Assembly: GCA_902776475.1 (NCBI GenBank)
Contig: CACYQD010000006.1
Coordinates: 87,993 to 151,992 of the forward strand
Source of the DNA: an uncultured Prevotellaceae bacterium
GTDB lineage: Bacteria > Bacteroidota > Bacteroidia > Bacteroidales > Bacteroidaceae
DNA length: 64,000 bases
Direction: 5' to 3'
The translations under genes and the position numbers were made by a program. The notes beneath the pieces were generated by a model. That model ran no database searches, was not told the origin of the DNA, and worked only from the letters and a program-made list of their open reading frames with translations. Of the stretch, positions 25,540 to 63,066 are shown piece by piece (position 1 is the stretch's first letter; the number at the start of each line of letters is the position of its first letter).

Positions 25540-25579
25540 CAGAGATTTTCCTACCCTGAGATATTGATCAGGGCAACAT

Positions 25580-25755
25580 GCGGTGGTTCACTTACGTGAT
25601 AAAAAGGGAATCAGGTGCGAATCCTGGACAGTCCCGCTGCTGTAAACTTGATTATGGAAAGACCTTAAGAGCCACTGGAGCACCATCATGATTCATAAAC
25701 GGTGCCTGGGAAGGCGGTCTCTCTCAAGTGAAGTCAGAAGACCTGCCACTGCAGT
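25580..25755 (+). promoter_or_regulatory. Cobalamin riboswitch 1
   Basis: The element shows the conserved core (AAAAAGGGAA 25600-25609, GGTGCGAATCC, CAGTCCCGCTGCTGTAA 25629-25645), GCCACTG at about 25671 and the B12-box-like AAGTCAGAAGACCTGCC (about 25731-25747). It lies directly upstream of the BtuB-type receptor. Binding of adenosyl- or methylcobalamin is expected to lower expression of the uptake operon that follows. Confidence 0.92.
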
Positions 25756-25787
25756 AGTTTCATGACAGCCTTTCGAGGAAGAGGCTT

Positions 25788-34213: not shown

Positions 34214-35548
34214 ATGATTCAAGAAATACCCGTATTACTTCTTACCGGCTATTTAGGAAGTGGCAAAACCACATTGGTCAACCGTATTCTCACCAACAAA
34301 CGCGGCATCAAATTCGCTGTGATCGTGAATGACATCGGCGAAGTGAACATCGACGCAGACCTGATTGAAAAAGGAGGTGTCGTGGGACAAAAGGACGAGA
34401 GTTTGGTGGCCTTGCAGAACGGCTGCATCTGCTGTACGTTGAAGATGGATCTCGTGGAACAACTGAGAGACATCACAAGACTTCATCGTTTTGACTATAT
34501 CGTCATTGAAGCCAGTGGCATCTGTGAACCAGCTCCTATCGCCCAGACCATTTGTTCGATACCAACCATGGGTATCGAATATGTGAAAGATGGCATGGTC
34601 AGACTCGATGCCATCGTCACAGTGGTTGACGCTCTCCGGATGCAAAGTGATTTTGGAGGTGGACTTGACCTGTTGAACCAGAATATAGACGAGGAAGACA
34701 TTGAAAATCTTGTCATTCAACAAATTGAGTTCTGCAACATCGTCTTACTCAATAAGGCTTCTGAGGTGGCTCCACAAGAATTGGAGAGACTCCGCCAGAT
34801 TATTCAGACCCTGCAGCCCAAAGCAAAAATCATTGATTGCGATTATGGGAACGTGGACCTGGACTTGATTCTCAACACGCACATCTTCAATTTTGAAGAG
34901 GTGGCCACATCTGCAACATGGATTCAAGAACTGGAGTCTCATCATGAGATGGATGAAGACGAAGACGATGAAGATGAAGATGAGCACAAACATGAGCATG
35001 AGCATGAGCATGAGCATGAACATGAGCATGAGCATGAAAATGAGCATGAGCACGAACATGAGCACGAACACGAGCACGAGCATGAACATGAGCACGATGA
35101 TGACCACGACGAGCATGAGCACCATGAAGGACATCATCATCACCATCATCATCACCATCATGATGGCGGTGAAGTCGAGGAATACGGTATCGGCACTTAT
35201 GTCTACTATCGCCGCAAACCGATGGATTTGAGTCTCTTTGATGAGTTCGTCGCCCGTAAATGGCCCAAGAATATCATTCGGGCAAAAGGTATCTGCTACT
35301 TCTATGACGAGCGGGAAACCTGCTATCTTTTCGAACAAGCCGGCAAACAAGTCAGCCTCAAGAACGCAGGTCGCTGGTATGCCACCATGCCGAAAGATGA
35401 ATTGCTGCAGTTGATGAACCGCGAACCTGGATTGAGACGCGATTGGGATGAACAATATGGCGACAGGATGCAGAAAATTGTGTTCATCGGACAAAAGCTG
35501 GACAAGAAAGCCATTGCTGAGGAATTAGACCGTTGCCTGGTGGATTGA
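34214..35548 (+). CDS. COG0523 (CobW/YjiA-type) metal-chaperone GTPase with His/Glu-rich tract
   Basis: The 444-residue protein begins with Walker A GYLGSGKTTLVNRIL. The family metal-binding motif GCICC follows (in LQNGCICCTLKMD), with EASGICEP and the NKASE base-recognition region. Between residues ~255 and 323 there is an extreme tract of His-Glu repeats ending in ten consecutive His, which can only bind metal such as zinc. A CobW C-terminal domain (~325-444) completes it. COG0523 proteins deliver metals, usually zinc, to client enzymes. True CobW proteins act with aerobic cobaltochelatase, which is not seen here, so a zinc role is more likely than a B12 role. Confidence 0.9.
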   Translation: MIQEIPVLLLTGYLGSGKTTLVNRILTNKRGIKFAVIVNDIGEVNIDADLIEKGGVVGQKDESLVALQNGCICCTLKMDLVEQLRDITRLHRFDYIVIEASGICEPAPIAQTICSIPTMGIEYVKDGMVRLDAIVTVVDALRMQSDFGGGLDLLNQNIDEEDIENLVIQQIEFCNIVLLNKASEVAPQELERLRQIIQTLQPKAKIIDCDYGNVDLDLILNTHIFNFEEVATSATWIQELESHHEMDEDEDDEDEDEHKHEHEHEHEHEHEHEHENEHEHEHEHEHEHEHEHEHDDDHDEHEHHEGHHHHHHHHHHDGGEVEEYGIGTYVYYRRKPMDLSLFDEFVARKWPKNIIRAKGICYFYDERETCYLFEQAGKQVSLKNAGRWYATMPKDELLQLMNREPGLRRDWDEQYGDRMQKIVFIGQKLDKKAIAEELDRCLVD

Positions 35549-49320: not shown

Positions 49321-49477
49321 CGGCACCTCAGGAAAAAAAGCAAAAACTTTGTTATTTGCTTTGTTTTCCATTCGGTTTGCACTACCTTTTGCTTTGCTGA
49401 ATGTAGGCGGCACCTCAGGAAAAAAAGCAAAAACTTTGTTTTTTACTTTGTTTTCCATTCGGTTTGCACTACCTTTG
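49321..49477 (+). repeat. 87-base-period tandem duplication carrying the promoter of B12 locus 2
   Basis: Two copies begin CGGCACCTCAGG at 49321 and 49408 and stay nearly identical for about 70 bases. Each has TTTG, exactly 19 bases, then a -7 element: TTTG 49360-49363 with TACCTTTT 49383-49390 in copy 1, and TTTG 49447-49450 with TACCTTTG 49470-49477 in copy 2. Copy 2 is the canonical promoter for the riboswitch starting about 10 bases later. Copy 1 lost the final G position. Confidence 0.85.
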
Positions 49478-49487
49478 CCAAAGAATT

Positions 49488-49652
49488 TGAGGTTCGCGCG
49501 TTGCGATGAAATGGGAATGGGGTGAGAATCCCCGACTGTCCCGCAGCTGTAAGGCCCTTTTATCGCCGCCAAGCGTGTAGCCACTGCCTATTTGATTGTC
49601 GGGCGGGAAGGTGCTTGGTGGTAGGGTCGAAGTCAGAAGACCAGCCTCAGAC
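49488..49652 (+). promoter_or_regulatory. Cobalamin riboswitch 2
   Basis: Core elements ATGGGAATGGGGTGAGAATCC and CTGTCCCGCAGCTGTAAGG (about 49508-49555), GCCACTG (about 49579) and AAGTCAGAAGACCAGCC (about 49630-49646) are in the correct order. The element precedes the second BtuF/BtuC-like pair. Cobalamin binding is expected to repress it. Confidence 0.93.
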
Positions 49653-49709
49653 AATATGTTTCATGCCTGAAATTCTCGGAGTAAGGATGGAGGGCGCAAC
49701 CGACTTTTT

Positions 49710-50865: not shown

Positions 50866-51900
50866 ATGAGGAATCCGGTCGCCTTGACGCTCTTGCAGGT
50901 ATTGCTGTTGGTGGTGTTGTTCGTGCTCAACCTGTTGCTTGGCACGGTCCGCATCCCCGTTGGCGATATCTGCGGGATTTTGTTGGGCGGCGGCAGCGAC
51001 AATGAGATCTGGCGCAATATCATCATCAACTCCCGTGTTCCCCAGGCACTGACTGCCATGGTAGCAGGTGCAGGTCTTGCAGTCAGCGGCCTTCAGATGC
51101 AGACGGTCTTTCGCAACCCGCTTGCAGGGCCATCGGTGCTGGGTATCTCCAACGGCGCCTCCCTTGGCGTGGCCTTTGTCGTATTGCTTTCCGGATCATT
51201 GGGTGGCGTGGCGCTCAGTCGTCTCGGTTACTTAGGCGACGTGGCCATGTCCATCGCTGCCATCGTTGGAGCTTTGGCGGTATTGGGACTCATCGCCTAC
51301 ATCTCTCAGAGAGTAAGAGGGAATGTGACCCTGCTCATCATTGGCGTGATGATAGGATACCTGGCCACAGCCATCATCGGAGTGTTGAAGTTTTTCTCCG
51401 CCGAAGAAGATGTGAAAGCGTTTGTCGTATGGGGACTTGGTTCTTTCGCCCGGGTTTCAGGCGACCAGATGATTCTCTTCGTCACGTTGATGGCCATACT
51501 CCTCCCTCTGAGCATGCTGCTTGTCAAGACCATGAACCTGTTGCTATTAGGAGACTCATACGCCAAGAACCTGGGCTTAAACATCAAGCGTTCACGCCTT
51601 TTGGTCATCATGAGTTCGGGCGTGCTGGTCGCTATCGTCACCGCCTATTGTGGGCCGATCATGTTCATCGGCCTTGCAGTGCCCCACCTGGCACGTGCCC
51701 TCTATCGTTCAAGTGACCACCGGATATTGATGCCGGGAACGATGCTGGCTGGAGGAATCCTGGCGCTGGTGTGCAACCTTCTTGCCCGTATGCCAGGTTT
51801 TGAGGGAGCGTTGCCTGTCAACTCTGTCACGGCCCTCGTCGGCGCACCGGTCATTGCCAGCGTGCTGTTTCGCAGAAACAGAAACGATGTTCAGGAGTAG
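50866..51900 (+). CDS. Second BtuC/FecCD-family permease
   Basis: The 344-residue membrane protein has the family signatures LQMQTVFRNPLAGPSVLGISNGASLGV, GYLATAIIGVLKFF, NLGLNIKRSRLLV and CGPIMFIGLAVPHLARAL. It pairs with the binding lipoprotein just upstream. No ATPase gene follows. Instead, its last 10 bases (including the TAG) overlap the 3' end of the convergent cbiJD gene, so transcription from both sides collides here. Confidence 0.9.
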   Translation: MRNPVALTLLQVLLLVVLFVLNLLLGTVRIPVGDICGILLGGGSDNEIWRNIIINSRVPQALTAMVAGAGLAVSGLQMQTVFRNPLAGPSVLGISNGASLGVAFVVLLSGSLGGVALSRLGYLGDVAMSIAAIVGALAVLGLIAYISQRVRGNVTLLIIGVMIGYLATAIIGVLKFFSAEEDVKAFVVWGLGSFARVSGDQMILFVTLMAILLPLSMLLVKTMNLLLLGDSYAKNLGLNIKRSRLLVIMSSGVLVAIVTAYCGPIMFIGLAVPHLARALYRSSDHRILMPGTMLAGGILALVCNLLARMPGFEGALPVNSVTALVGAPVIASVLFRRNRNDVQE

Positions 51901-53684
51901 ATCTCCCCATTCTCTCCGATGAGCAGGATGGTGAGTTCGCAATCATTCACGACAGTGGCGCAATGCTGCTGACAATGGCCGATGACCACCTTGCAAAAAG
52001 CAGGAATTTTCTCTTCAGGTATCATCTTCCACAGTTCCCTTGCAAGGGTGAGGTCGGTGATGTCTATCGGACATCCCGCTTCTTTGAGCATCTGTGAGAC
52101 GAACGCCTTGTCCATCGTTCCCCGACGGCTGTGAGTATCCAGTTGTCCTGCGGCCAACTTCACCGCTTTTCCCAACATCACACCCAAGGTCACCCTCTCT
52201 ATGCCCATTTCGTCGGCCATCTTCAGCGTCTCACCGATATAGTTGCCATACTCAACGAAAGCCTGTTGTGGCAGTTCCGGATAACACGCACGCACAAATC
52301 GTTCGCTTTTCGCCCCGCTGTTGATGACCACCCTTGGTGCTCCGCTCGCCATAGCCACTTGCAGGCATTTCCTGATAGACTCGATGAAAGCCTCTTCCGA
52401 AAACGGCATGACGATGCCAGAAACGCCGATAATGCTGATGCCTCCGACAATGCCTATTCTGGGATTGAAGGTACGGTGGGCAATCTGCGCACCTTCAGGT
52501 ACAGAGATGATGACTTGAAGAGATGTGTTAAAAACAGCGAGGTTGCTGCGAATCATTTGCCTTGGCGACTTATTGATGGCGGGTTCGCCAGGAGGATAGT
52601 CAAAACCTGGCAAAGTGAAGGTGCCCACCCCCTCACCTCCTTTAATGACCACTTCCATAGGGTCATCTTCATCGATACGGGAGACTGACGCTCTAACCTC
52701 TAATCCATCAGTCACGTCAGGATCATCACCGCCAGGTTTGGTCACATACGCGAAATCATCGCCATAACAGACAGGGACAAGGATTGTCTCGCCATCGGGA
52801 AGGACGACGGGCACCTCGTCGGGTTTCTCCTTACGCAGCAGCGCAGATGCGGCAGCGACCGCCGCCGCTGTGGCACAAGTACCGGTAGTCAGACCACTGT
52901 GCAGGGGGTAGAATTCAGGAAGGCGCTTTTCTACTGCACGCCTCAGACCATGCGGTCCATTGACATAGTCTATCGCGACAGCCTTGTCTTGAGGAATCAC
53001 GCCCTGTGGAGGGTAAATCGGCCGTTCAACAGCGAAAACCTTTATTCCTGCCGCCTTGGCCGATTCCACTTTTAGGGAGAATCCGCCACTTGCCCCACTC
53101 TCCTTAGTAAGGATGGCATCAGGCTGAAGTTGGCTGATGAGTGTTTCCGTGGCATCCTCTTCATAAAATACCAGATGACTCTCGGGGAATCCAGCCTGTG
53201 AAGCCAAACCTATCGAGGTTTCTCTGTGGAGGATGCGGAACCAGCACTCTTGACGGTTCCAAAAAGGACGGAGCTGGCTAATCGTATTGACCCCAGTCAG
53301 TGCCAACAATCGCTGAACACCATGCTCCTCCATCTTTTTTATAGCATCCTGATAGTCTTTACACCAGATGACATCATCGGTGCGGGGAGGATAAATCCTG
53401 TCGAATCTGACTATGGGCAATTCTGATTGGAGGGCAAGTTGCAGCAGGTTCTTGTGCAGGTTCTCCGCAAAAGGATGAGCCGCATCGACAATGAGCCGAA
53501 TGTCATGTTCCTCACAAAAGGAGATCATCTCAGGCAAGTCCATGCCACCTTTCAGATGAATGCCATGAGTAAGGTTGACCTGCTGTTCATCACCCCGTGT
53601 GGAGTAATAATAGCGTGACCCCGCGGCTTCCAAAGCCTCCACGGCCTTACGTCCTTCTGTCGTTCCTCCAAACACGAGAATCAT
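51891..53684 (-). CDS. cbiJD: Fused precorrin-6A reductase and cobalt-precorrin-5B C1-methyltransferase
   Basis: The 597-residue fusion has a CbiJ/CobK reductase part (~1-245; ILVFGGTTEGRKAVEAL, VDAAHPFAENLHKN, TKESGASGG). A CbiD part follows (~258-597; HSGLTTGTCATAAAVAAAS, IGIVGGISIIGVSGIV, VTLGVMLGKAVKLA). CbiD methylates C1 after ring contraction and CbiJ reduces precorrin-6A. CbiD marks the oxygen-independent B12 route. It is last of the seven-gene operon and starts 2 bases after the cbiGF stop. Confidence 0.94.
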   Translation of the reverse strand: MILVFGGTTEGRKAVEALEAAGSRYYYSTRGDEQQVNLTHGIHLKGGMDLPEMISFCEEHDIRLIVDAAHPFAENLHKNLLQLALQSELPIVRFDRIYPPRTDDVIWCKDYQDAIKKMEEHGVQRLLALTGVNTISQLRPFWNRQECWFRILHRETSIGLASQAGFPESHLVFYEEDATETLISQLQPDAILTKESGASGGFSLKVESAKAAGIKVFAVERPIYPPQGVIPQDKAVAIDYVNGPHGLRRAVEKRLPEFYPLHSGLTTGTCATAAAVAAASALLRKEKPDEVPVVLPDGETILVPVCYGDDFAYVTKPGGDDPDVTDGLEVRASVSRIDEDDPMEVVIKGGEGVGTFTLPGFDYPPGEPAINKSPRQMIRSNLAVFNTSLQVIISVPEGAQIAHRTFNPRIGIVGGISIIGVSGIVMPFSEEAFIESIRKCLQVAMASGAPRVVINSGAKSERFVRACYPELPQQAFVEYGNYIGETLKMADEMGIERVTLGVMLGKAVKLAAGQLDTHSRRGTMDKAFVSQMLKEAGCPIDITDLTLARELWKMIPEEKIPAFCKVVIGHCQQHCATVVNDCELTILLIGENGEIYS

Positions 53685-53686
53685 GG

Positions 53687-55459
53687 CTATTCCCCCTTTC
53701 TGTACAAATGTGTGAAATGCTTGTTGTAGAGTTCGGAAAAACCCTGTCGATTGTCGATGGATTCTCCCACGACAAGCATGGTGGTCAGCGTGAGATTGTT
53801 GTCATGAACAATCTTGGACAGGTCTTTCAATACGCCACGATATATTCTCTGGTCAGGCCAAGTCAGATGGTAGCAAGCCGCCACAGGCGTGTCCTCGGGG
53901 TATTCCTGCAACAGTTCCCGCTGTACGTCATCCACGATGGCGGCACTGAGGAAGATGCACATCGTGCTCTGGCTTCGCGCCAACAAGTGGAGCTTTTCCT
54001 TCTCTGGCATCGGCGTGCGCCCTTCTCCACGCGTAAGGATGATGGTCTGTGTGCGCTCGGGGATGGTAAACTGACTCCGCAGTTCCGCTGCCGCGGCGAG
54101 AAAAGAAGAGATGCCCGGCGTGATGTGATAGGACATGCCGTTGGCATCAAAGAAAGCCATCTGCTCCTGAATGGCACCGAAGATGCAGGGGTCGCCGGTA
54201 TGGAGACGGACGATGAAATGCCCCTTGTCATAATGCTCTTTCATCAACCGGCACTGCTCTTCAAGAGCCATTCCCGCCGAGGAGCGCACCACGGCACCAG
54301 ATTTGGCGCAAGAGGTCAATTCACGCGGCACCAGGCTGCCGGCATAGAGGATGAGGTCTGCCTTCTCCAGCATCCTGCGCCCTCTGACCGACACCAGGTC
54401 GGGGTCTCCAGGTCCAGCCCCCACGATTTCCACGTGGGCATGTCTTTGGCGCAGATATTTGCGGTCGATGGCCAGTGCGGCCGTCCAGTTCCTGCCCTTC
54501 AGCTTCTCCACAATCAACTTTCCATGGTTGGACCCCAAGATGGCCGCCGCCTCACATACGCTCGGCGTACCAACATGTTTCTCCACCACATCGCTGGGAT
54601 GAGGAACGTGCACGGCAGCCAATTCCTCGGCGGTGAAGAATGAAAGATGTATATTGTATTTTTTCTGTATCAGTTTGACGAAAGGCTCGTCAGCCTTTAC
54701 ATCGATGGTGCAGTAGTTGCAGGCGCAGGGAAACACTTTTTGGGCAAGAAAGACCGCTTCCATCTGTTCGAAGATGTCCTCATAGTCATCTGGATGATGA
54801 GCCAGCCCGAAACCAATCGTGCCTACCATCGGCACGAAATGCAACGTCAACATTCCTTGGGGCACATCGTGCATGAAGGGGGTCACCATGATGAGCAGTT
54901 TGAATCTCTTCGGGTCGGCCTGGCTGATGTCATCGATGAGGGTGACATGGTCGGGAAGCGACTTTTCCATATATTCGGTGCCCGGGTCACGCACTTCCAA
55001 CAACAGCGCAGTCGGTCTTCGGTTGACGAAGGCGAAGATGCAGTCGTTCATATTGTCCTTGTACGGCATGGACCAGTCAAACCGTTTTCCCAAAGTGTCG
55101 AGCGCCCATAGTCCGGCATTGTCGCTTTGGGTGGTGATGACGGGATTCGCGCCCAATATTCCGGCCACGGTGCTTGTCAGTTCGTTGGCACCGCCTATAT
55201 GACCTGAGAGCACGGAGATGACATTCTGGCCCAGGGTATCGACACACACCACCGCTGGATCTTCGTGCTTGTCCTTGATGAGAGGCGCTATGGTGCGCAC
55301 GCAGATGCCCATGGCTCCGATGAAGATGAAAGCGTCGAAATCCTTCCATCGTGCTCCCGCTTCGCTGCGCTTGATGAGAGTCGCATTCAACTGTCTCTTG
55401 AGTTCCTGGGCGATGTCTGTCCCCGCCTCATTGATTTGGATGATGGCTATTTTCTGCAT
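53687..55459 (-). CDS. cbiGF: Fused cobalt-precorrin-5A hydrolase and precorrin-4 C11-methyltransferase
   Basis: The 590-residue fusion has CbiG (~1-335; FIFIGAMGICVRTIAPL, VISVLSGHIGGANEL, GFGLAHHPDD-like centre). CbiF/CobM follows (~343-590; VEIVGAGPGDPDLVSVRGRR, LHTGDPCIFGAIQEQM, TPGISSFLAAAAEL). CbiF methylates C11 and CbiG opens the lactone and releases acetaldehyde, consecutive steps of the anaerobic corrin pathway. CbiG is diagnostic for that route. It overlaps cbiET by 13 bases. Confidence 0.94.
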   Translation of the reverse strand: MQKIAIIQINEAGTDIAQELKRQLNATLIKRSEAGARWKDFDAFIFIGAMGICVRTIAPLIKDKHEDPAVVCVDTLGQNVISVLSGHIGGANELTSTVAGILGANPVITTQSDNAGLWALDTLGKRFDWSMPYKDNMNDCIFAFVNRRPTALLLEVRDPGTEYMEKSLPDHVTLIDDISQADPKRFKLLIMVTPFMHDVPQGMLTLHFVPMVGTIGFGLAHHPDDYEDIFEQMEAVFLAQKVFPCACNYCTIDVKADEPFVKLIQKKYNIHLSFFTAEELAAVHVPHPSDVVEKHVGTPSVCEAAAILGSNHGKLIVEKLKGRNWTAALAIDRKYLRQRHAHVEIVGAGPGDPDLVSVRGRRMLEKADLILYAGSLVPRELTSCAKSGAVVRSSAGMALEEQCRLMKEHYDKGHFIVRLHTGDPCIFGAIQEQMAFFDANGMSYHITPGISSFLAAAAELRSQFTIPERTQTIILTRGEGRTPMPEKEKLHLLARSQSTMCIFLSAAIVDDVQRELLQEYPEDTPVAACYHLTWPDQRIYRGVLKDLSKIVHDNNLTLTTMLVVGESIDNRQGFSELYNKHFTHLYRKGE

Positions 55460-56664
55460 TTCAGTATGTCTATGGGGTTGTAGTCATTGAGTTGGATATG
55501 TATGGGAGTTTCCTCTTTCAGTCGGAGTTCCACGCAGGCTTCATGGAACAGTACCTTGCTGCTTCTTCGGTCGGTCATCCTTTGGACGACAGGCGAGGAG
55601 ACGCTGTTGGTGACGATGCATCCCCCAGGAAGCAACACGTCACGCACTTTGGCCATGATTTCCCTCAGTCTGCCACCATGGCCACCGATGAACACGGCGT
55701 CGGGACGAGGCAGGCCGTCGATGTCGGTCTGCAGGAAGTCACCGATATGCACGTCAATACCGGGCGCACCTAAACGGCGGCTGTTGTGGTATATCAGTGG
55801 CTCACACTCCGGACGGATCTCGAAGGCCACCACCTGCAGATGAGGGAACTGCAGGCGTGCTTCTATGGACACGCTGCCCGTACAGAAGCCGATGTCCCAA
55901 AAGACCTGTTTTCCGGGCAAGCCGAGGGCTTGAAGAGTGAGCAATCTGATGGGCATCTTCGTGATCATCTTCTCTCGCCCGTCGAGCAGGTCAAACTGTT
56001 GGTCGGGAATGCCGAAGGGCCTTGCCGGCAATTCCTGGTCTGTGGACAGGATAAGGCAGTTGGGATGGTCGAAGTTGGAAGCGACAGCCTCTTCAAGAGA
56101 AAGTGTCACGACTTGCTCGCGCACGGGGTTGCCCAAGTGTACGCCTACGTGCATCGTATAACCATCATATCCGTAGTCAAGCATTCTCTGGGCAATGGCC
56201 GCCGGGGTGTGGCTGCGGTCGGTGAGTACACCGATTTTTCCCATGCGCTTGATCAGCGCCTGGTCGAATGCGGGCCAGGGACGTCCTGTGAGCGACACCA
56301 CACACAAGTCATGATAAGGCATCACCAACCGGTGTGCCAACATCTGCAAGGAGTTGAAGGATGGAAAGAGCACGATTTCCGCTTCGGGGAGTTTGCGCTT
56401 GATGGTGTTGGCAAAACCGAAGAAGAGAGGATCGCCGGAAGCAAAGACGATGACATCGGCATCAAGTTGCTCATATTGCTTAAAAACGGCATCGAGCGGT
56501 GCTGTAATGTCAATCCATAATGCCTTTTCGGGCAATAGCGGAGCCATGATATCATGGTGCCGCATGCCTCCAGAAAAGACAAGGCCCGACCTGATGATTT
56601 CCATCACCTCCGGTGGGAAAAACGGTTTTGGCGCATCGGTGATGCCTATGACGGTAAACTTCAT
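55447..56664 (-). CDS. cbiET: Precorrin-6Y C5,15-methyltransferase/decarboxylase (CbiE-CbiT fusion)
   Basis: The 405-residue protein, CobL-like, has a CbiE methyltransferase part (~1-205; FASGDPLFFGFANTI, MPYHDLCVVSLTGRPW) and a CbiT part (~210-405). CbiT shows the SAM-binding sequence VFWDIGFCTGSVSIEARLQFP and PDAVFIGGHGG. It methylates C5 and C15 and removes the ring C acetate carboxyl. It overlaps cbiHC by 4 bases and cbiGF by 13, so translation is coupled. Confidence 0.94.
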   Translation of the reverse strand: MKFTVIGITDAPKPFFPPEVMEIIRSGLVFSGGMRHHDIMAPLLPEKALWIDITAPLDAVFKQYEQLDADVIVFASGDPLFFGFANTIKRKLPEAEIVLFPSFNSLQMLAHRLVMPYHDLCVVSLTGRPWPAFDQALIKRMGKIGVLTDRSHTPAAIAQRMLDYGYDGYTMHVGVHLGNPVREQVVTLSLEEAVASNFDHPNCLILSTDQELPARPFGIPDQQFDLLDGREKMITKMPIRLLTLQALGLPGKQVFWDIGFCTGSVSIEARLQFPHLQVVAFEIRPECEPLIYHNSRRLGAPGIDVHIGDFLQTDIDGLPRPDAVFIGGHGGRLREIMAKVRDVLLPGGCIVTNSVSSPVVQRMTDRRSSKVLFHEACVELRLKEETPIHIQLNDYNPIDILKCRK

Positions 56665-58061
56665 AAATCCCTCCCTGGTTTGAGTTGTTCTGCATCATCG
56701 AAAGTGAGGATGGCATTGCACAGCGTGGCAGCCAGATTGCTGCCGCCCTTGCGACCTTCCACTATGATTTTGGGGATGTCCTTGAAAGGTTTGACCATGT
56801 GTTTAGACTCCCTCACATGGACGAAGCCCACGGGAGCGGCGATGATGCCCGCCGGACGTGCCTTGCCTTTGCGTATCAGCGAACAAAGTTCCATCAGTGC
56901 CGTGGGGGCATTGCCGAAGGCGAAGAGCGCATCGGGATGCTCCTCCACGGCCAGCCGTATGCCCGCCTGTGTGCGCGTGATGCCCAGTGAAGCCGCCATC
57001 TCTGCCACGCGAGGGTCGCCGAGGTAACATTTGGCCTCCATTCCCAGGCGCGACAGGGCACCTTTTCGTATGCCGCTCACCACCATCGTCACGTCGGTGA
57101 CAATGGTCCTGAGTTCGCCCTTAGCCACTTTCCGATACAAGGCCTCCACGGCGTGGTCATCGGTTTTCAGCAATCTCTCCATCTCGAAGTCTGCAGTGGT
57201 GTGGATGGCATGGAGCAACGCCCATTTGTGGTCGAGGGGCCAGTCCTTTCGGTGCAGTTCGCTGGCAATGGTCCGGAAGGAGTTCATCATGATCTGCTGA
57301 CCGGGTTTGACCTCTTCATCCTTTTCCTGGGCGTAATAGCCACGTGGGGTGATGATTTTTCCTTCGCTGATATATGATTGTGAGTTGCCGATGAGGATGA
57401 CAGTGAACATGTCCACCTCCTCGGGGTCGAAACCGGCAATCGTGGTGACCTTCACCTCCTGTTCCTCACGTCCCGCCTGACGCACATAGCCTATGGGTGT
57501 TTCCGGCGAGCGCCATTTCAAAAAGAGTTCCTGCAGCCGATAGAGTTGCCAATATCGTCCATGCGACTTCGGGTTGTAGATGGCTGTGACGAAATCGCCG
57601 GTGATGGCGGCTTTGATGCGCCTTTCAATCACTTCCCATGGTGTCAGCAAATCACTCAAGGAGATGATGCACATGTCATGGCCGATGGGTGCTCCCAGCA
57701 GCGATGCTGCCTTCTGAAAAGCGGAGATGCCGGGGAGAGATGTAACCTCCACGTCAGACGCCCGTTCACGACGCATCTCATAGATAAGGGGCGTCATCCC
57801 ATAGATGCCCGCATCGCCAGACGAGATAACCACCACCGTCTTTCCTTGTTCTGCCAGTTCGAATGCCTGTTCTGCCCGCTGACGCTCTTTCTTCATACCG
57901 GTGTCAACACAGATGCAACCCTCTTTCAAGAGCGGTTGGACAAACTGGAAATAATACTGATAGCCCACTACGGCATCTGCCTGTCGGAGTGCTTCGACCA
58001 CGGCGGGCGTGATATCCTCACGACTGCCAGGTCCTATGCCTGCAACGATGATTTTTTTCAT
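56661..58061 (-). CDS. cbiHC: Fused precorrin-3B C17-methyltransferase and precorrin-8X methylmutase
   Basis: The 466-residue fusion begins with CbiH/CobJ (~1-245; IIVAGIGPGSREDITPA, SSGDAGIYGMTPLIYE, LPGISAFQKAASLLGAPIGHD). It ends with CbiC/CobH (~255-466; VTDVTMVVSGIRKG, LFAFGNAPTALMEL, IIAAPVGFVHVRESK). CbiH causes ring contraction with C17 methylation, and CbiC moves a methyl from C11 to C12 near the end of corrin synthesis. The two steps are far apart in the pathway, so the fusion is for shared expression rather than channelling. Confidence 0.94.
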   Translation of the reverse strand: MKKIIVAGIGPGSREDITPAVVEALRQADAVVGYQYYFQFVQPLLKEGCICVDTGMKKERQRAEQAFELAEQGKTVVVISSGDAGIYGMTPLIYEMRRERASDVEVTSLPGISAFQKAASLLGAPIGHDMCIISLSDLLTPWEVIERRIKAAITGDFVTAIYNPKSHGRYWQLYRLQELFLKWRSPETPIGYVRQAGREEQEVKVTTIAGFDPEEVDMFTVILIGNSQSYISEGKIITPRGYYAQEKDEEVKPGQQIMMNSFRTIASELHRKDWPLDHKWALLHAIHTTADFEMERLLKTDDHAVEALYRKVAKGELRTIVTDVTMVVSGIRKGALSRLGMEAKCYLGDPRVAEMAASLGITRTQAGIRLAVEEHPDALFAFGNAPTALMELCSLIRKGKARPAGIIAAPVGFVHVRESKHMVKPFKDIPKIIVEGRKGGSNLAATLCNAILTFDDAEQLKPGRDL

Positions 58062-58072
58062 GGTTCTTATGG

Positions 58073-58129
58073 GTGTTTATGGGAAATGTGGGTGTTTATG
58101 AAAATAATGAGAGTTTATGGGAAATGTGG
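58073..58129. repeat. Three tandem 19-base units at the cbiB-cbiHC junction
   Basis: Units at 58073-58091, 58092-58110 and 58111-58129 share GTGTTTATG at their left end; units 1 and 3 also share GGGAAATGTGG. Unit 3 covers the last codons and stop of cbiB, so the gene end appears to have been duplicated downstream. It fills the only real gap (53 bases) inside the operon. Confidence 0.7.
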
Positions 58130-59047
58130 GATGAGATACAGAATGAGTGCTGTCAGTGCCACCATCAGCACTTCTGCGATACGGTTGATGCGGACAGCCT
58201 TCTCCATGTCGGCAGTGGAGAGTTGGCGTTCTTGGTCTCCGATATAAGGTTTGTCAAACAACTGCCCGAAGTAGTAATGTGGGCCGCCAAAGCGACAGCC
58301 GAGGATACCGGCCAATGCCGCCTCGGGATATCCGCTGTTGGGACTGGCGTGGTTGCGGCCATATTTGGTTACGAAAAAGAGCAAGCCCAACCTCCCGGAA
58401 GCGACAACCATCAACAGCGCCGTGAGACGTGCGGGGATATAGTTGGCCACGTCGTCGATACGTGCAGCCCAACAGCCGAAGTCCTTGTATCGCTCCGTGC
58501 GATATCCCACCATGGAGTCGAGTGTGTTCACCATCTTATAGGCAAGCATTCCCGGTGTGCCGCCGATGGCCAACCAGAAGAGCGGTGCCACAACTCCATC
58601 GCTTAGGTTCTCGGCAAGCGTCTCAAGGGCTGCCGTCCGCACCTCCTGTGCCGACAACTCAGAAGTGTCGCGGCCTACGATGCGCGCCACCTGCCGACGC
58701 CCCTCCTCCAAGGAACGGTCAAGGGCAACGAACACGGCACGGACCTCCCGGATGAGTGTGGTTCCTGCCAGACAATAGAACACGATGATGGTGTCGAAAG
58801 CCATGCCCAACCATACGTTTACAAGACAGAGAAAATGGCGGATTGCCCATCCGACAAGAAACACCATGACGATAAGGGCGATAGCCATCATCGCGCCTTT
58901 CACCTTGCGATGCATGCCCTTGTTGAGACGATGCTCCCCGAAGGCAATGATCTTGCCAAACCCCACCACGGGATGGGGCAGCCACCTGGGGTCTCCACAT
59001 ATCAGGTCGAGCAACCAGCCGGCAAATAGTGAAAAGGTCTTAATCAT
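58115..59047 (-). CDS. cbiB: Adenosylcobinamide-phosphate synthase
   Basis: The 310-residue membrane protein has the family start LFAGWLLDLICGDPRWLPHPVVGFGKII. Several membrane segments follow (IALIVMVFLVGWAI, LVNVWLGMAFDTIIVFYCLAGT), with ETLAENLSDGVVAPLFWLAIGGTPGMLAYKMVNTLDSMVGYRTERYKDFGCWAARIDD, the signature of CbiB/CobD. It joins aminopropanol (phosphate) to adenosylcobyrate. It overlaps cbiP by 8 bases. Confidence 0.95.
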   Translation of the reverse strand: MIKTFSLFAGWLLDLICGDPRWLPHPVVGFGKIIAFGEHRLNKGMHRKVKGAMMAIALIVMVFLVGWAIRHFLCLVNVWLGMAFDTIIVFYCLAGTTLIREVRAVFVALDRSLEEGRRQVARIVGRDTSELSAQEVRTAALETLAENLSDGVVAPLFWLAIGGTPGMLAYKMVNTLDSMVGYRTERYKDFGCWAARIDDVANYIPARLTALLMVVASGRLGLLFFVTKYGRNHASPNSGYPEAALAGILGCRFGGPHYYFGQLFDKPYIGDQERQLSTADMEKAVRINRIAEVLMVALTALILYLIPHFP

Positions 59048-60518
59048 CGGTCAGTATCTGGTATATCCTTTCCATGTCCACATGCTGGCGCACATGCAGA
59101 GCGAGTTTGTCATATTGTTCTTCCTTGAAGGCTTGGTAATCGAAGGGTTTCTCGGCCTGTTCAAGTTTTTCCGAGAACGGTGAGAGCAGAAAATCGACAA
59201 ACGGGGCGTTGTCGAGGATACCGTGGACATAGGTGCCCATGCATTTCCGGTCAACCCTGTAGCCATCCTCCCTTCCATTGTCGAGATGCAGCAGCGGCGA
59301 GGGTTTTGCATCACCGAAAGGACGCGTCTCCCCCATGTGGATCTCATATCCACGGCCATATTCGCAGGCCACCTGCCTGGTCGTCTTCTCACCGCCCATA
59401 TTGGTTGTGACGGGCAACAGTCCCAGTCCTGGCAGGCGGTCGATGTCGCCCTCCACATGGTCGGGGTCGCACACCTCGATGCCCATCAGTTGGTATCCTC
59501 CGCAGATGCCAAGGACGGTGGCACCGTTGCGGTGGGCTTTGACAATGGCTTGGGCACATCCATTGCGACGCAGTTCATAGAGGTCGCTGAGGGTGGATTT
59601 CGTGCCAGGCAGAATGATGATGTCGGCCTTACCTAAATCCTCCACATTGTTGGTGTAGAAGAGATGCACGCGTGGATCTTGTTCCAACGAGTCGAAGTCG
59701 GTATAATTGGACAGGTGCTTCAGCATCACCACGGCGATGTTCACCTTTCCCCTTTCCGTTGTCATGGATTTCTGCGCCAGGGCCACACTGTCTTCCTCCT
59801 CGATATGGATGTCCTTGTAATAAGGCACCACGCCGAGGACAGGAACGCGGCAGATGTCCTCCATCATCTTCCTACCCTCATCGAACAACCTCATGTCGCC
59901 ACGAAACTTGTTGATAATGACACCCTTGATGAGTCGTTGGTCTTCGGGCGTCTGCAAGGCGATGCTACCGAAGACCGAAGCGAAGACGCCGCCTCTGTCG
60001 ATGTCGCCGACAAGGATGACATCGGCTTTGGCATGCCGTGCCATGGACATGTTGACAATGTCCCTGTCTCTGAGGTTGATTTCCGAGATGCTTCCTGCTC
60101 CTTCCATGACGACAGGGTTGTATCTGGCAGCCAAACGGTCGAAAGCCAGGCACACCTCTTTCCGGAAGTCGATGTCGGAAGTTCCCCTCCGCCAAAAATC
60201 ATACGCGTCTTTGTTGCCGACGGGTTTGCCATGGAGCACCACCTGTGAGGTATGATCTGACTGCGGCTTGAGCAGCAGCGGGTTCATATCGGTATGGCAG
60301 GGAATGCCCGCCGCCTCGGCCTGCACGGCCTGCGCCCTTCCTATCTCCAGTCCTTCAGGTGTGGCGAAGGAGTTGAGCGCCATGTTCTGCGCCTTGAAAG
60401 GAGCAGGGTTGTAACCATCCTGCTTGAAGATGCGGCAGAAGGCGGCGGAGATGATGCTCTTGCCCACGTCACTGCCTGTGCCGACGAACATAATGGGATG
60501 CAACTTATCTTTTTTCAT
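59040..60518 (-). CDS. cbiP: Cobyric acid synthase
   Basis: The 492-residue protein begins with the P-loop-like IMFVGTGSDVGKSIISAAFCRIF and FKAQNMALNSFATPEGLEIGRAQ. The C-terminal type I glutamine amidotransferase domain (~250-485) carries the nucleophile Cys in VLGICGGYQLMG and the catalytic His in GTYVHGILDN. It amidates four carboxyl groups of the corrin ring. It overlaps cbiA by 4 bases and cbiB by 8. Confidence 0.96.
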   Translation of the reverse strand: MKKDKLHPIMFVGTGSDVGKSIISAAFCRIFKQDGYNPAPFKAQNMALNSFATPEGLEIGRAQAVQAEAAGIPCHTDMNPLLLKPQSDHTSQVVLHGKPVGNKDAYDFWRRGTSDIDFRKEVCLAFDRLAARYNPVVMEGAGSISEINLRDRDIVNMSMARHAKADVILVGDIDRGGVFASVFGSIALQTPEDQRLIKGVIINKFRGDMRLFDEGRKMMEDICRVPVLGVVPYYKDIHIEEEDSVALAQKSMTTERGKVNIAVVMLKHLSNYTDFDSLEQDPRVHLFYTNNVEDLGKADIIILPGTKSTLSDLYELRRNGCAQAIVKAHRNGATVLGICGGYQLMGIEVCDPDHVEGDIDRLPGLGLLPVTTNMGGEKTTRQVACEYGRGYEIHMGETRPFGDAKPSPLLHLDNGREDGYRVDRKCMGTYVHGILDNAPFVDFLLSPFSEKLEQAEKPFDYQAFKEEQYDKLALHVRQHVDMERIYQILTDD

Positions 60519-61798
60519 ATTTCACGGCGGTCTTCGTATAGGTTTGTCTCATAGATATGATAAAGGTGTGTGTAACTGGCTAGTATGTTTTTGTGTCGGA
60601 AAACGGGTGTATCGACTGGTTCACCCTTGGCATTATAAACCTGGACAACACTTTGGGGTGTCTCCCCAAGGAATTGAGTGTAGTGGAACTCATGTCCGCG
60701 GTATTCCGTACCTCCCAATGTGAAACGGCGGTATCCCAAGGAGAGTTTCCTGTCGGCTTTCCTTGCGGTGATGGTATATGGCAGTACACCGCACATGCGA
60801 TACTCGCCCGTGTCATCGATGATGCTCTTGCAAAGGTACATCATGCCTCCGCATTCTGCAATAACCCGTCCACCTTGTTCAGCAAAGAGCAAGATGGCTT
60901 CCCGTGCCGCCACATTTTCAGTCAAGGCATCGAGGTGCTTTTCAGGATAACCGCCAGGCAGGTATAGCAAATCACCGTCTTCAAGGGATGGGGCTTCCGT
61001 CTCGGGGTCGAAAAAAGTGATATTTTGAAAAGCGTCGAGCAACTCCTGGTAGATAAAGGAGAAAGACTCCTTGTTGCGAGCCACGACCAATCTCGGACTG
61101 TTTTTGGTCTTCCATCTGGTGGTGGGCTGAAATGTTGTTTCCGCACCAAGGGCGAGCAGACGGTGCCAATCCACATTTTCCTCCAACAGACTGATCAATG
61201 ATTGCGACTCAGGCATATCAGAAAAGTCGAGTCCAAGGTAGCGAGAGTCCTGTTCCAAATCGGGATGGTTGGGCAACATCCCATAGCAATCCAGTCCGAT
61301 TTCATCACACACTTGACGGAGCATATTCAAATGGCGCTTCGAGCCCACCCTGTTGAAGATCACGCCGCAGATATTCACGTCTTTCCGAAAATGGACAAAA
61401 CCAGATAGCAATGCAGCCAAGGAATAGGCCGACCGTTTGGCATCAACCACCAACACAACCGGCAATCCCAATGTCCGTGCGATTTCCGACGAGGAGCCAA
61501 GGTCACGGTCATAGCCGTCGAACAGTCCCATCATACCCTCCACGACGCATACGTCGGCATCTTTGCCATAATGGGCGAAGAGTTCTTGCACATGATGCGG
61601 CGAGGCCATGAATGTGTCGAGATTGATGCTTGGTCGTCCACAGACAATTTCATGAAATTTCGTGTCGATATAATCCGGTCCGCACTTAAACGGCTGTACG
61701 CTCTTTCCTTTCTCAGTGAAGAACGCCATCAGTCCACGGGCAATTGTGGTCTTGCCCGAGCCGCTTGAAGGTGCCGCTATCATAAAACTCGTTTTCAT
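60515..61798 (-). CDS. cbiA: Cobyrinate a,c-diamide synthase
   Basis: The open frame extends back to 61879 into the repeat region, but ATG at 61798 (MKTSFMIAAPSSGSGKTT) is the family start and gives 427 residues. The P-loop is SSGSGKTT, and YIDTKFHEIVCGRPSINLD follows. The C-terminal amidotransferase domain has its nucleophile Cys in VIAECGGMMYL and His in GHEFHYTQF. It amidates the a and c side chains. It is the first gene of the operon. The nearest -7 element ends only 6 bases before the ATG, so transcripts from it would be nearly leaderless; copies 2 and 3 of the repeat would give leaders of ~70 and ~145 bases. Confidence 0.95.
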   Translation of the reverse strand: MKTSFMIAAPSSGSGKTTIARGLMAFFTEKGKSVQPFKCGPDYIDTKFHEIVCGRPSINLDTFMASPHHVQELFAHYGKDADVCVVEGMMGLFDGYDRDLGSSSEIARTLGLPVVLVVDAKRSAYSLAALLSGFVHFRKDVNICGVIFNRVGSKRHLNMLRQVCDEIGLDCYGMLPNHPDLEQDSRYLGLDFSDMPESQSLISLLEENVDWHRLLALGAETTFQPTTRWKTKNSPRLVVARNKESFSFIYQELLDAFQNITFFDPETEAPSLEDGDLLYLPGGYPEKHLDALTENVAAREAILLFAEQGGRVIAECGGMMYLCKSIIDDTGEYRMCGVLPYTITARKADRKLSLGYRRFTLGGTEYRGHEFHYTQFLGETPQSVVQVYNAKGEPVDTPVFRHKNILASYTHLYHIYETNLYEDRREI

Positions 61799-61803
61799 TT
61801 GTG

Positions 61804-62036
61804 CAAAAGTACGATTAAGTGAGCGAAAAGCCAAATTTATTTGGGCTTTTCCGAACGAAGTACTTTCGGCGATAGCCAAAAGTACGATTAAGTGAGCGAA
61901 AAGCCAAATTTATTTGGGCTTTTCCGAACGGAGTACTTTCGGCGATAGCCAAAAGTACGATTAAGTGAGCGAAAAGCCAAATTTTATTTGGGCTTTTCCG
62001 AACGGAGTACTTTCGGCGATAGCCAAAAGTACGATT
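61804..62036 (-). repeat. Tandem repeat array of complete promoters upstream of cbiA
   Basis: Three full units start at 61804, 61877 and 61950 (73, 73 and 74 bases), with a 13-base fourth partial copy from 62024. On the minus strand every full unit contains TTTG, a 20-base spacer and TACTTTTG, a perfect Bacteroidota promoter. It also has two stem-loop-forming segments (GAAAAGCC/GGCTTTTC and CCGAA/TTCGG). The units differ by two changes in total (one A/G, one extra T). The last partial copy overlaps the stop codon of the WYL gene. Confidence 0.93.
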
Positions 62037-63066
62037 ATAATTTGCCCTCCTCATCCTCATACAGGTCAAGAGCTTCCCTCAGTTTGTCACGCATATACTT
62101 CACCGCATTCCGAGGATAGATAATCCTGATCCCGGGACCATAGGACATGAAGACCGAATACATCTCGAAGTTGATGACCACATCGATTCTGAAGACGCAA
62201 CTCCCATCTTCCGGATTCTCCCTGATCAGCTGTTGGGAACGATGAATGGGCTTGGTCTTGATGTATTTGCTTTGCTCCCGACTGGCCCAGAACTTGATAC
62301 ATCTCGGTGTGTTTTTGATATTCTTGCTCACCCCGATCACGTCATCGAAGAAATGCTCCGAGTCGAAATCGGGATTCTCACGGAATGGGACATCTATCGG
62401 TTCGACACTTTTGATGCGGTCGAGGGCAAGATTGTAGAGCATCAAGTCTTTTGCACGGCAACCAAACAGGAACCAGCGGTTGCGGAACTCTTTCAAAAGA
62501 TACGGGAAGAGGATGAACTCCCCGGGCTGTCTGGCCGAGAATGACTGGTACATGATGCGCAACGTCTGCTTGTGGGCAATGTAGTTGTAGAGCGGATTCA
62601 GCAAACGTATACCCTCCAGGTCGGGAACACTGTCGAAATGGATGATGGGCTTGCGGTTGTTGCGGCTGATGGCCAGTTTGTCCTGCAGGCGGCTCACCAC
62701 ATCCGCCATCTCGGAGAACTGCCCGAAATCCTCCAACTGCCTGAGCATGTCAACGGCTTCCTGCATCACCTCATAGTCGTTCTGCGACATCGGCATGTCC
62801 ATGATGGAATAGTCACTGTCCGCATAGCGGTAATACTTGTGGTCATACACCTCGATGGGAGCATTGTAGCCGAGTTTGTCGGAGCGCATCATCTGGATGT
62901 CGCCCTGCACGGTGCGGACGGAAACGCCCTTGCGGATGCCCTCCATATCATACAATGCCTCTGAGCAGGCATCCACCAAGTCTTCGAGTGTCCAACGGCG
63001 GTAGCGGTTGCGAAGACAGTTGTCAATGGTCTTGTAACGTATCAACGCATTCTTGTTTGCAGGCAT
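62035..63066 (-). CDS. WYL-domain transcriptional regulator
   Basis: The 343-residue protein has an N-terminal winged helix-turn-helix (~5-75; RYKTIDNCLRNRYRRWTLEDLVDACSEAL, VSVRTVQGDIQMMRSD). A WYL domain follows (~150-230; LRIMYQSFSARQPGEFILFPYLLKEFRNRWFLFGCRA) with a C-terminal WCX-type extension. WYL regulators sense nucleotides or nucleic acids and often control DNA-damage or defence genes. It starts 63 bases after the RlaP-like gene on the same strand, so the two probably form an operon. Confidence 0.92.
   Translation of the reverse strand: MPANKNALIRYKTIDNCLRNRYRRWTLEDLVDACSEALYDMEGIRKGVSVRTVQGDIQMMRSDKLGYNAPIEVYDHKYYRYADSDYSIMDMPMSQNDYEVMQEAVDMLRQLEDFGQFSEMADVVSRLQDKLAISRNNRKPIIHFDSVPDLEGIRLLNPLYNYIAHKQTLRIMYQSFSARQPGEFILFPYLLKEFRNRWFLFGCRAKDLMLYNLALDRIKSVEPIDVPFRENPDFDSEHFFDDVIGVSKNIKNTPRCIKFWASREQSKYIKTKPIHRSQQLIRENPEDGSCVFRIDVVINFEMYSVFMSYGPGIRIIYPRNAVKYMRDKLREALDLYEDEEGKL

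Follow-up and report, generated by a model that had tools for sequence, protein, structure and literature searches.

The locus analysed here raises the question of why three near-identical, promoter-like units stand in tandem in front of a cobalamin (B12) biosynthesis operon, and what such an arrangement does there. In the window, by which we mean the whole 64,000-nucleotide stretch of DNA under analysis, the operon lies on the minus strand. Its first gene is cbiA, for cobyrinate a,c-diamide synthase (60515–61798; Pfam CbiA and GATase_3), and the remaining six (51891–60518, minus strand, identified by Pfam) are, in order, a cobQ-like gene, cbiB, a TP_methylase-CbiC fusion, a TP_methylase gene, a CbiG-TP_methylase fusion and a CbiJ-CbiD fusion. 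The seven cobalamin genes counted in the initial annotation of this DNA were all confirmed by Pfam. Upstream and co-directional with the operon is a gene for a regulator with WYL and WCX domains (62035–63066, minus strand, Pfam), and the array lies in the interval between the stop codon of this gene, which it adjoins, and the ATG of cbiA.

Rfam reported no riboswitch at cbiA. Two cobalamin riboswitches (RF00174) were found on the plus strand at 49473–49663 and 25567–25764, neither of which precedes the cbiA operon; upstream of cbiA in many relatives there is, by eye, a sequence that resembles the reverse complement of a cobalamin riboswitch and faces away from the gene. TRF also reported a 19-bp tandem repeat of 3.2 copies (58070–58130) where cbiB meets the following operon gene, and repetitive GAACATGAGCAC and CATCATCATCAC units at 34976–35161 that would encode a His/Glu-rich segment if translated.

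TRF placed the array in front of cbiA at 61804–62037 (period 73, 3.2 copies, 98% matches), and this was the top score among its 14 rows for the window. Read on the minus strand, the array comprises unit 1, the outermost full unit (61950–62023, 74 bp), unit 2 (61877–61949, 73 bp), the gene-proximal unit 3 (61804–61876, 73 bp) and the 14-bp stub of a fourth unit (62024–62037), which starts at the TAA stop of the WYL gene. Pairwise identity among the full units is 97–99%, and they abut head-to-tail without spacers; a CRISPR array is ruled out, since the units adjoin without unique spacers. They differ from each other at fixed positions, by 74 against 73 bp and by one C/T. The best self-identity of the array at shifts of 60–89 is 0.77, compared with a maximum of 0.42 in 2000 shuffles. 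Every full unit carries TTTG-N20-TACTTTTG directed toward cbiA, at 61981–61950 in unit 1, 61908–61877 in unit 2 and 61835–61804 in unit 3, and the −33 element, the spacer and the −7 element of these putative promoters are identical across all three. The stub has the −7 element only and lacks the −33, so the earlier count of three complete promoter-like units of 73–74 bases is correct. As had also been predicted, the innermost copy would start transcription almost at the ATG, which stands 5 nt past the end of the −7 element of unit 3. On both strands of the whole window, TTTG-N18..21-TAnnTTTG occurs 13 times, against 0.7 expected from 20 mononucleotide shuffles, and the array units are three of the 13, all with N20. 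An Rfam search of the array returned no family at the gathering score (best sub-threshold matches E 0.47 and 0.59).

The house-keeping promoter of Bacteroidota (sigma-ABfr type; PMC7366714) has TTTG near −33 and TAnnTTTG near −7. Judged against that description, the units are alike in both elements, in the spacer of about 20 nt and in facing ORFs just downstream; unlike it, they conserve the spacer and the flanks too, their promoter being embedded in two compensating palindromes.

Our search showed that the unit is not confined to cbiA. With the array as a blastn query, 17 places were found in its own genome, the array itself counted. The core TTTCGCTCRCTTAWTCGTAMCTTTG occurs there 27 times at up to 3 mismatches, the three copies of the array included, while the reversed pattern does not occur. 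Across 120 genomes sampled from the genus, the own genome included, 75 contain the motif, with 1 to 115 copies each, and the reversed-motif control gave zero in all 120; of 151 genomes from the family, covering 30 genera, 45 also contain it, and these belong to 11 genera. The cbiA array is a member of a dispersed, promoter-bearing palindromic repeat family that is genome-wide and genus-wide, and therefore the unit is not specific to the B12 operon. The other 45 genus genomes, many near-complete ones among them, lack the motif, and others have more than 90 copies. Promoter function as such can therefore do without the cassette, and the patchy distribution needs to be accounted for, for instance by a spreading agent or by repeated loss. 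Among the literature matches listed we found no description of the family, a search whose scope left aside preprints, most subscription papers and supplementary tables. A single odd array is hereby linked to a widespread putative promoter repeat of Prevotella relatives.

The copies are oriented and anchored with respect to genes. The own-genome motif set (35 copies at ≤5 substitutions, covering all 27 listed places) and that of a second genome, G094 (114 copies, covering 104 of its 115 places), gave 20 and 89 elements, respectively. Counting ORFs of at least 80 codons from ATG, GTG or TTG, a start lies within 100 bp downstream of the proximal motif in 16/20 elements of the own genome and 83/89 of G094, compared with 4/20 and 21/89 in the opposite direction. 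ATG is the start in 14 and 78 of these, at a median distance of 19 and 22 bp. Some elements are symmetric by eye, with a promoter on each arm, and are mostly situated between divergent ORFs (L015, L181, L198, L207, L224 and L239).

Near-identical putative promoters precede non-homologous genes within the own genome. From the 16 own-genome elements with an ATG-started ORF, ten proteins besides CbiA were scanned with Pfam. Names read from the matches include lon, metF, leuS, another class I tRNA synthetase, serS and ychF, together with a tRNA pseudouridine synthase, an aldo/keto reductase, a glycosyl hydrolase 3 and a U32 peptidase. Only 3 of the 16 own-genome targets are found among the 83 of G094. 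A common regulon was considered on this basis and is weak, with about 0.5 shared targets expected when the gene number of G094 is estimated at ~2700.

Short intergenic palindromes, sometimes in tandem, are well known as REP and BIME elements associated with RAYT. A selfish element of the REP or MITE kind, inserting upstream of genes and with its promoter use incidental, would explain why the family is dispersed, palindromic and patchy between genomes, and why its target genes turn over as they do between the own genome and G094. We consider this unlikely, for the elements have a consistent orientation and are anchored at ORF starts. Unlike REP and BIME, they also contain a promoter, are oriented to genes and gave no RAYT link. 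The one Y1 transposase gene found in the genome, which is 93.6% complete, has no copy of the motif at ≤6 substitutions in its 2102-bp locus, and the idea of a RAYT-driven REP was rejected. An origin from phage or plasmid was likewise rejected: phage records gave no match, plasmid records a single match of 41 bp, and viral contigs no exact motif.

The closest published analogue that we found is BrickBuilt of Porphyromonas gingivalis, described in PMC4596501 as a MITE/minisatellite with a 23-nt unit within a leader/tail element and with bidirectional promoters assayed in E. coli. On that description, both families belong to Bacteroidota, are intergenic and dispersed, and combine tandem with inverted repeats, with promoter activity found for BrickBuilt and predicted here; they differ in that the present unit is 73–74 bp long, is itself promoter-like and directional, and is anchored at ORF starts. 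Of 250 palindromic candidates for structured RNAs in Bacteroidetes, 230 are predicted terminator stem-loops (PMC8040213). These are similar to the present family as short palindromes near Bacteroidetes genes and dissimilar in that no promoter is noted for them in the descriptions by which they were compared, one candidate possibly overlapping.

The reading that we prefer, with a probability of roughly 0.7, is that a dispersed Prevotella promoter cassette has expanded here in the manner of a minisatellite, and that the proximal copy of the array is the cbiA promoter and the outer copies are probably redundant or weakly additive. The cassette, of about 73 bp, would carry a promoter of the house-keeping type of Bacteroidota (TTTG at −33, TAnnTTTG at −7) that reads in one direction and lies within two palindromes, and would be copied to new gene fronts by an unspecified route. 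Local expansion may then proceed through slippage or recombination, helped by the repeat length and the hairpins. The outer copies would arise by tandem duplication and homogenisation, extra copies being mostly tolerated, and the gene-proximal copy would drive cbiA and give a near-leaderless mRNA. Putative mobile promoters, that is, near-identical promoters before unrelated genes of one genome, were reportedly treated as promoter propagation by Matus-Garcia et al. in 2012; the present family, with a mobility mechanism that is still putative, differs from them in being palindromic and variable in tandem copy number.

The assignment of the innermost copy is best considered beside the orthologous genes. 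The best 80 of 584 named cbiA relatives are for the most part metagenome assemblies that carry the name Prevotella, Prevotellaceae or a related one, with a rumen origin given in many of the titles, and they provided 78 distinct upstream regions. TAnnTTTG lies within 45 nt of the aligned cbiA start in 55 of the 78, at 4–6 nt in 30 of these 55, and is absent within this distance in the other 23; 12 of 1357 background windows have it. TTTG stands 18–22 nt further up in only 8 of the 55, and the repeat is on the sense strand at no more than 6 of the 80 named loci. The 5-nt spacing is thus the usual arrangement at cbiA, whether the repeat is present or not. This comparison speaks for the innermost copy as the putative cbiA promoter and for a predicted near-leaderless mRNA. 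In the B. thetaiotaomicron map of PMC7366714, only ~3.7% of 5′ UTRs are shorter than 10 nt. The cbiA matches themselves are split in two pieces in G049 (C47) and G349 (C18), by real frameshifts or assembly errors.

The initial annotation had proposed that copy number differs between relatives, and our comparison agrees. In front of cbiA there are three units and a stub here and, among the nearest relatives, two units in each of the genomes G049, G349 and G387, one at locus L045 and none in G009. In G049 the two units are followed by a mutated stub in the same WYL-array-cbiA order, and the C-terminus of its WYL protein is 100% identical to the one here over 40 aligned positions, stop included. 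In G349, the 420 bp upstream of cbiA are equal to those of the named locus L118. The sense-strand motif at ≤6 substitutions and within 400 bp was present at six of the 80 named loci (L045, L056, L099, L100, L108 and L118), the matches at L099 and L100 being weak and resembling ordinary promoters. The opposite-strand motif was present at four (L053, L054, L055 and L074) and the reversed-motif control at none. A search of 398 genomes of the genus gave 30 cbiA loci, with the cbiA start located in 27; among these 27, only L253, with one copy, has the sense-strand motif within 400 bp besides the own genome. The same copy number in all relatives, named beforehand as the observation that would speak against the initial proposal, was not what we found among the relatives compared.

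All three units of the window are closer to the outer unit of G049 (97–99%) than to its inner unit (93–95%). This suggests that one unit type replaced the others in the lineage of the window by homogenisation, in keeping with the recent amplification or homogenisation proposed at first.

Other loci behave in the same way. The fetched loci of G049 and G349 hold 37/39 and 35/42 of their motif places, filtering by length and mismatches left 23 and 25 elements, and 14 orthologous loci could be paired, with a downstream identity of 87–97% (median 94%). The number of motif copies (≤6 substitutions, intact or not) differs at 8 of the 14 and is equal at 6, the cbiA locus with two and two being among the latter. 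Six of the differences are firmer, because two pairs are doubtful: at L306/L327 a stretch of N adjoins the array, and L312/L303 aligns poorly near the start; a clean extra unit is visible in one pair, L308/L330. Copy number changes between species, each represented by one genome, at cbiA and at other loci. As in a minisatellite or VNTR, the units are head-to-tail and their number varies at orthologous loci between species. The copy number of the repeat changes between close species before core genes, and the natural variants of one operon, with 0, 1, 2 and 3 units, make it possible to ask directly whether arrays of promoters tune bacterial expression, in a group with poorly known regulation.

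Arrays make up 9/20 elements in the own genome and 23/89 in G094, where most elements are single. An intact −7 element was found in 105/109 proximal motifs compared with 31/40 distal ones (Fisher p = 0.001). A further test was anchored on the arm of HP2, the palindrome at the unit junctions, and covered 157 proximal elements of four genomes, 109 of them with the arm. It gave an intact −7 element in 108/109 proximal and 55/109 next-outward copies, and a whole promoter in 104/109 and 35/109. This test is biased, as the proximal copies were found by their own motif, one mismatch was tolerated in matching the arm, and part of these matches lay in the wrong place or belonged to divergent promoters or to places without a second copy; we trust it for direction, not for size. 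Taken together, these counts suggest that the innermost copy is generally the one kept and that the outer copies decay. The three intact copies in the window fit a recent expansion.

These results bear on a rival reading, which follows the tuning idea of the initial annotation. In it, copy number serves as a dial under selection: every further unit would be an active promoter that raises expression of the operon, and the array would be kept variable for that purpose. Three complete promoters with identical −33, spacer and −7 elements, and the variation between relatives at cbiA and elsewhere, would suit it. However, the next outward copy in the family often lacks a full promoter (35/109, in the biased test just described), recent duplication by itself accounts for the intact copies here, and elements and arrays also precede the genes read as lon, metF, leuS and serS. 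The outer promoters thus look mostly dispensable at other loci, and we regard a selected dial as rather unlikely. It is possible that copy number tunes the dose of the operon. The broader proposal that genus-wide cassettes copy into gene fronts, that their fast-changing arrays act as an expression dial of housekeeping and biosynthetic genes, those for B12 included, and that outer starts give structured leaders, seems to us a little less likely still.

Our preferred reading of an expanded promoter cassette must also accommodate the two palindromes. HP1 of unit 3 (61825–61851, minus strand) overlaps the −33 TTTG and has equivalents at 61898–61924 and 61971–61998. HP2 at the junction of units 2 and 3 (61860–61885, minus strand; GTACTTTTGGC/GCCGAAAGTAC), with equivalents at 61933–61958 and 62007–62032, covers the −7 element of one unit together with the start of the next. 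The RNA fold of the array (z = −7.9) contains both hairpins in each unit, in agreement with what had been predicted. Folding of single HP1 windows is only moderate, with z < −2 in 7/20 elements of the own genome and 30/89 of G094.

For HP1, the mean duplex energy of an element's own arms was −9.25 kcal/mol in the 20 own-genome elements and −7.96 in the 89 of G094, compared with −5.47 and −5.20 kcal/mol for swapped arms differing at ≥5 of 17 positions; none of 5000 permutations reached the observed mean in either set. This test was chosen after the result of an earlier, ungapped one was known, which gave 7.45 of 15 pairs in the own genome (6.96 swapped, 7.62 shuffled upstream; 24/5000 permutations as good) and 9.65 in G094 (8.84 swapped, 8.35 shuffled; 0/5000 permutations). 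The ungapped test is weak because there is a bulge in the stem. For HP2, the variable position is complementary in 64/76 cases; in 28/36 distinct loops the two outer positions of the loop pair, compared with 30% when the ends are swapped. Both hairpins are thus maintained through compensating changes while the sequence varies. With regard to the terminal inverted repeats that a MITE would have, a matching 5′ arm is present in 31/109 elements with no further copy upstream, 26 of the 31 being complementary at the variable base. The base opposite the middle T of TTTG was G in 73, A in 6 and C in 6 of 85 HP2s; the G would keep a wobble pair in the sense RNA and remove a backward TAnnTTTG.

Another hairpin piece that recurs (AACAAATGAAATGCAAGCATTTCTTTGTTTT-like, by eye) replaces HP1 or sits inside it, upstream of the same promoter core, at L158, L162, L165 and L184 in G094 and at L308 and L330.

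Such compensation exceeds the needs of a plain promoter, so a structural role is possible, in DNA or in read-through RNA. It has been taken further in the reading that function resides in the hairpins: HP1 and HP2 would form an attenuator or insulator in RNA read through from the WYL gene, with the promoter placed just downstream. Both palindromes being kept by compensation agrees with this, and so does the G of 73/85 HP2s, which pairs by wobble in sense RNA and mismatches in antisense. However, the asymmetry is equally explained by promoter direction, as the backward TAnnTTTG is removed. Just four T follow HP1 here, with no long U run, the Rfam result above offers no family at the gathering score, and some divergent gene pairs have one symmetric element in common (by eye). 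We find this reading doubtful and the expanded cassette the better account, and the compensating palindromes around the −33 element pose a concrete question on promoter structure in Bacteroidota.

That mis-assembly inflated an array of one or two units is very improbable: the source genome is in draft form, with 55 contigs, as are most of the relatives used for comparison, short tandem repeats are error-prone in drafts and a 73-bp repeat is hard for short reads, but the units can be told apart at their fixed positions and G049 has the same WYL-array-cbiA order with two units and a stub.

Other dispersed intergenic repeats were seen by eye beside arrays of the family, GCCCAGGGCAACGCCCTGGG-like ones at L003, L010 and L016 and CCAACCCTTCCTTATCGTAAGG-like ones at L004 and L005.
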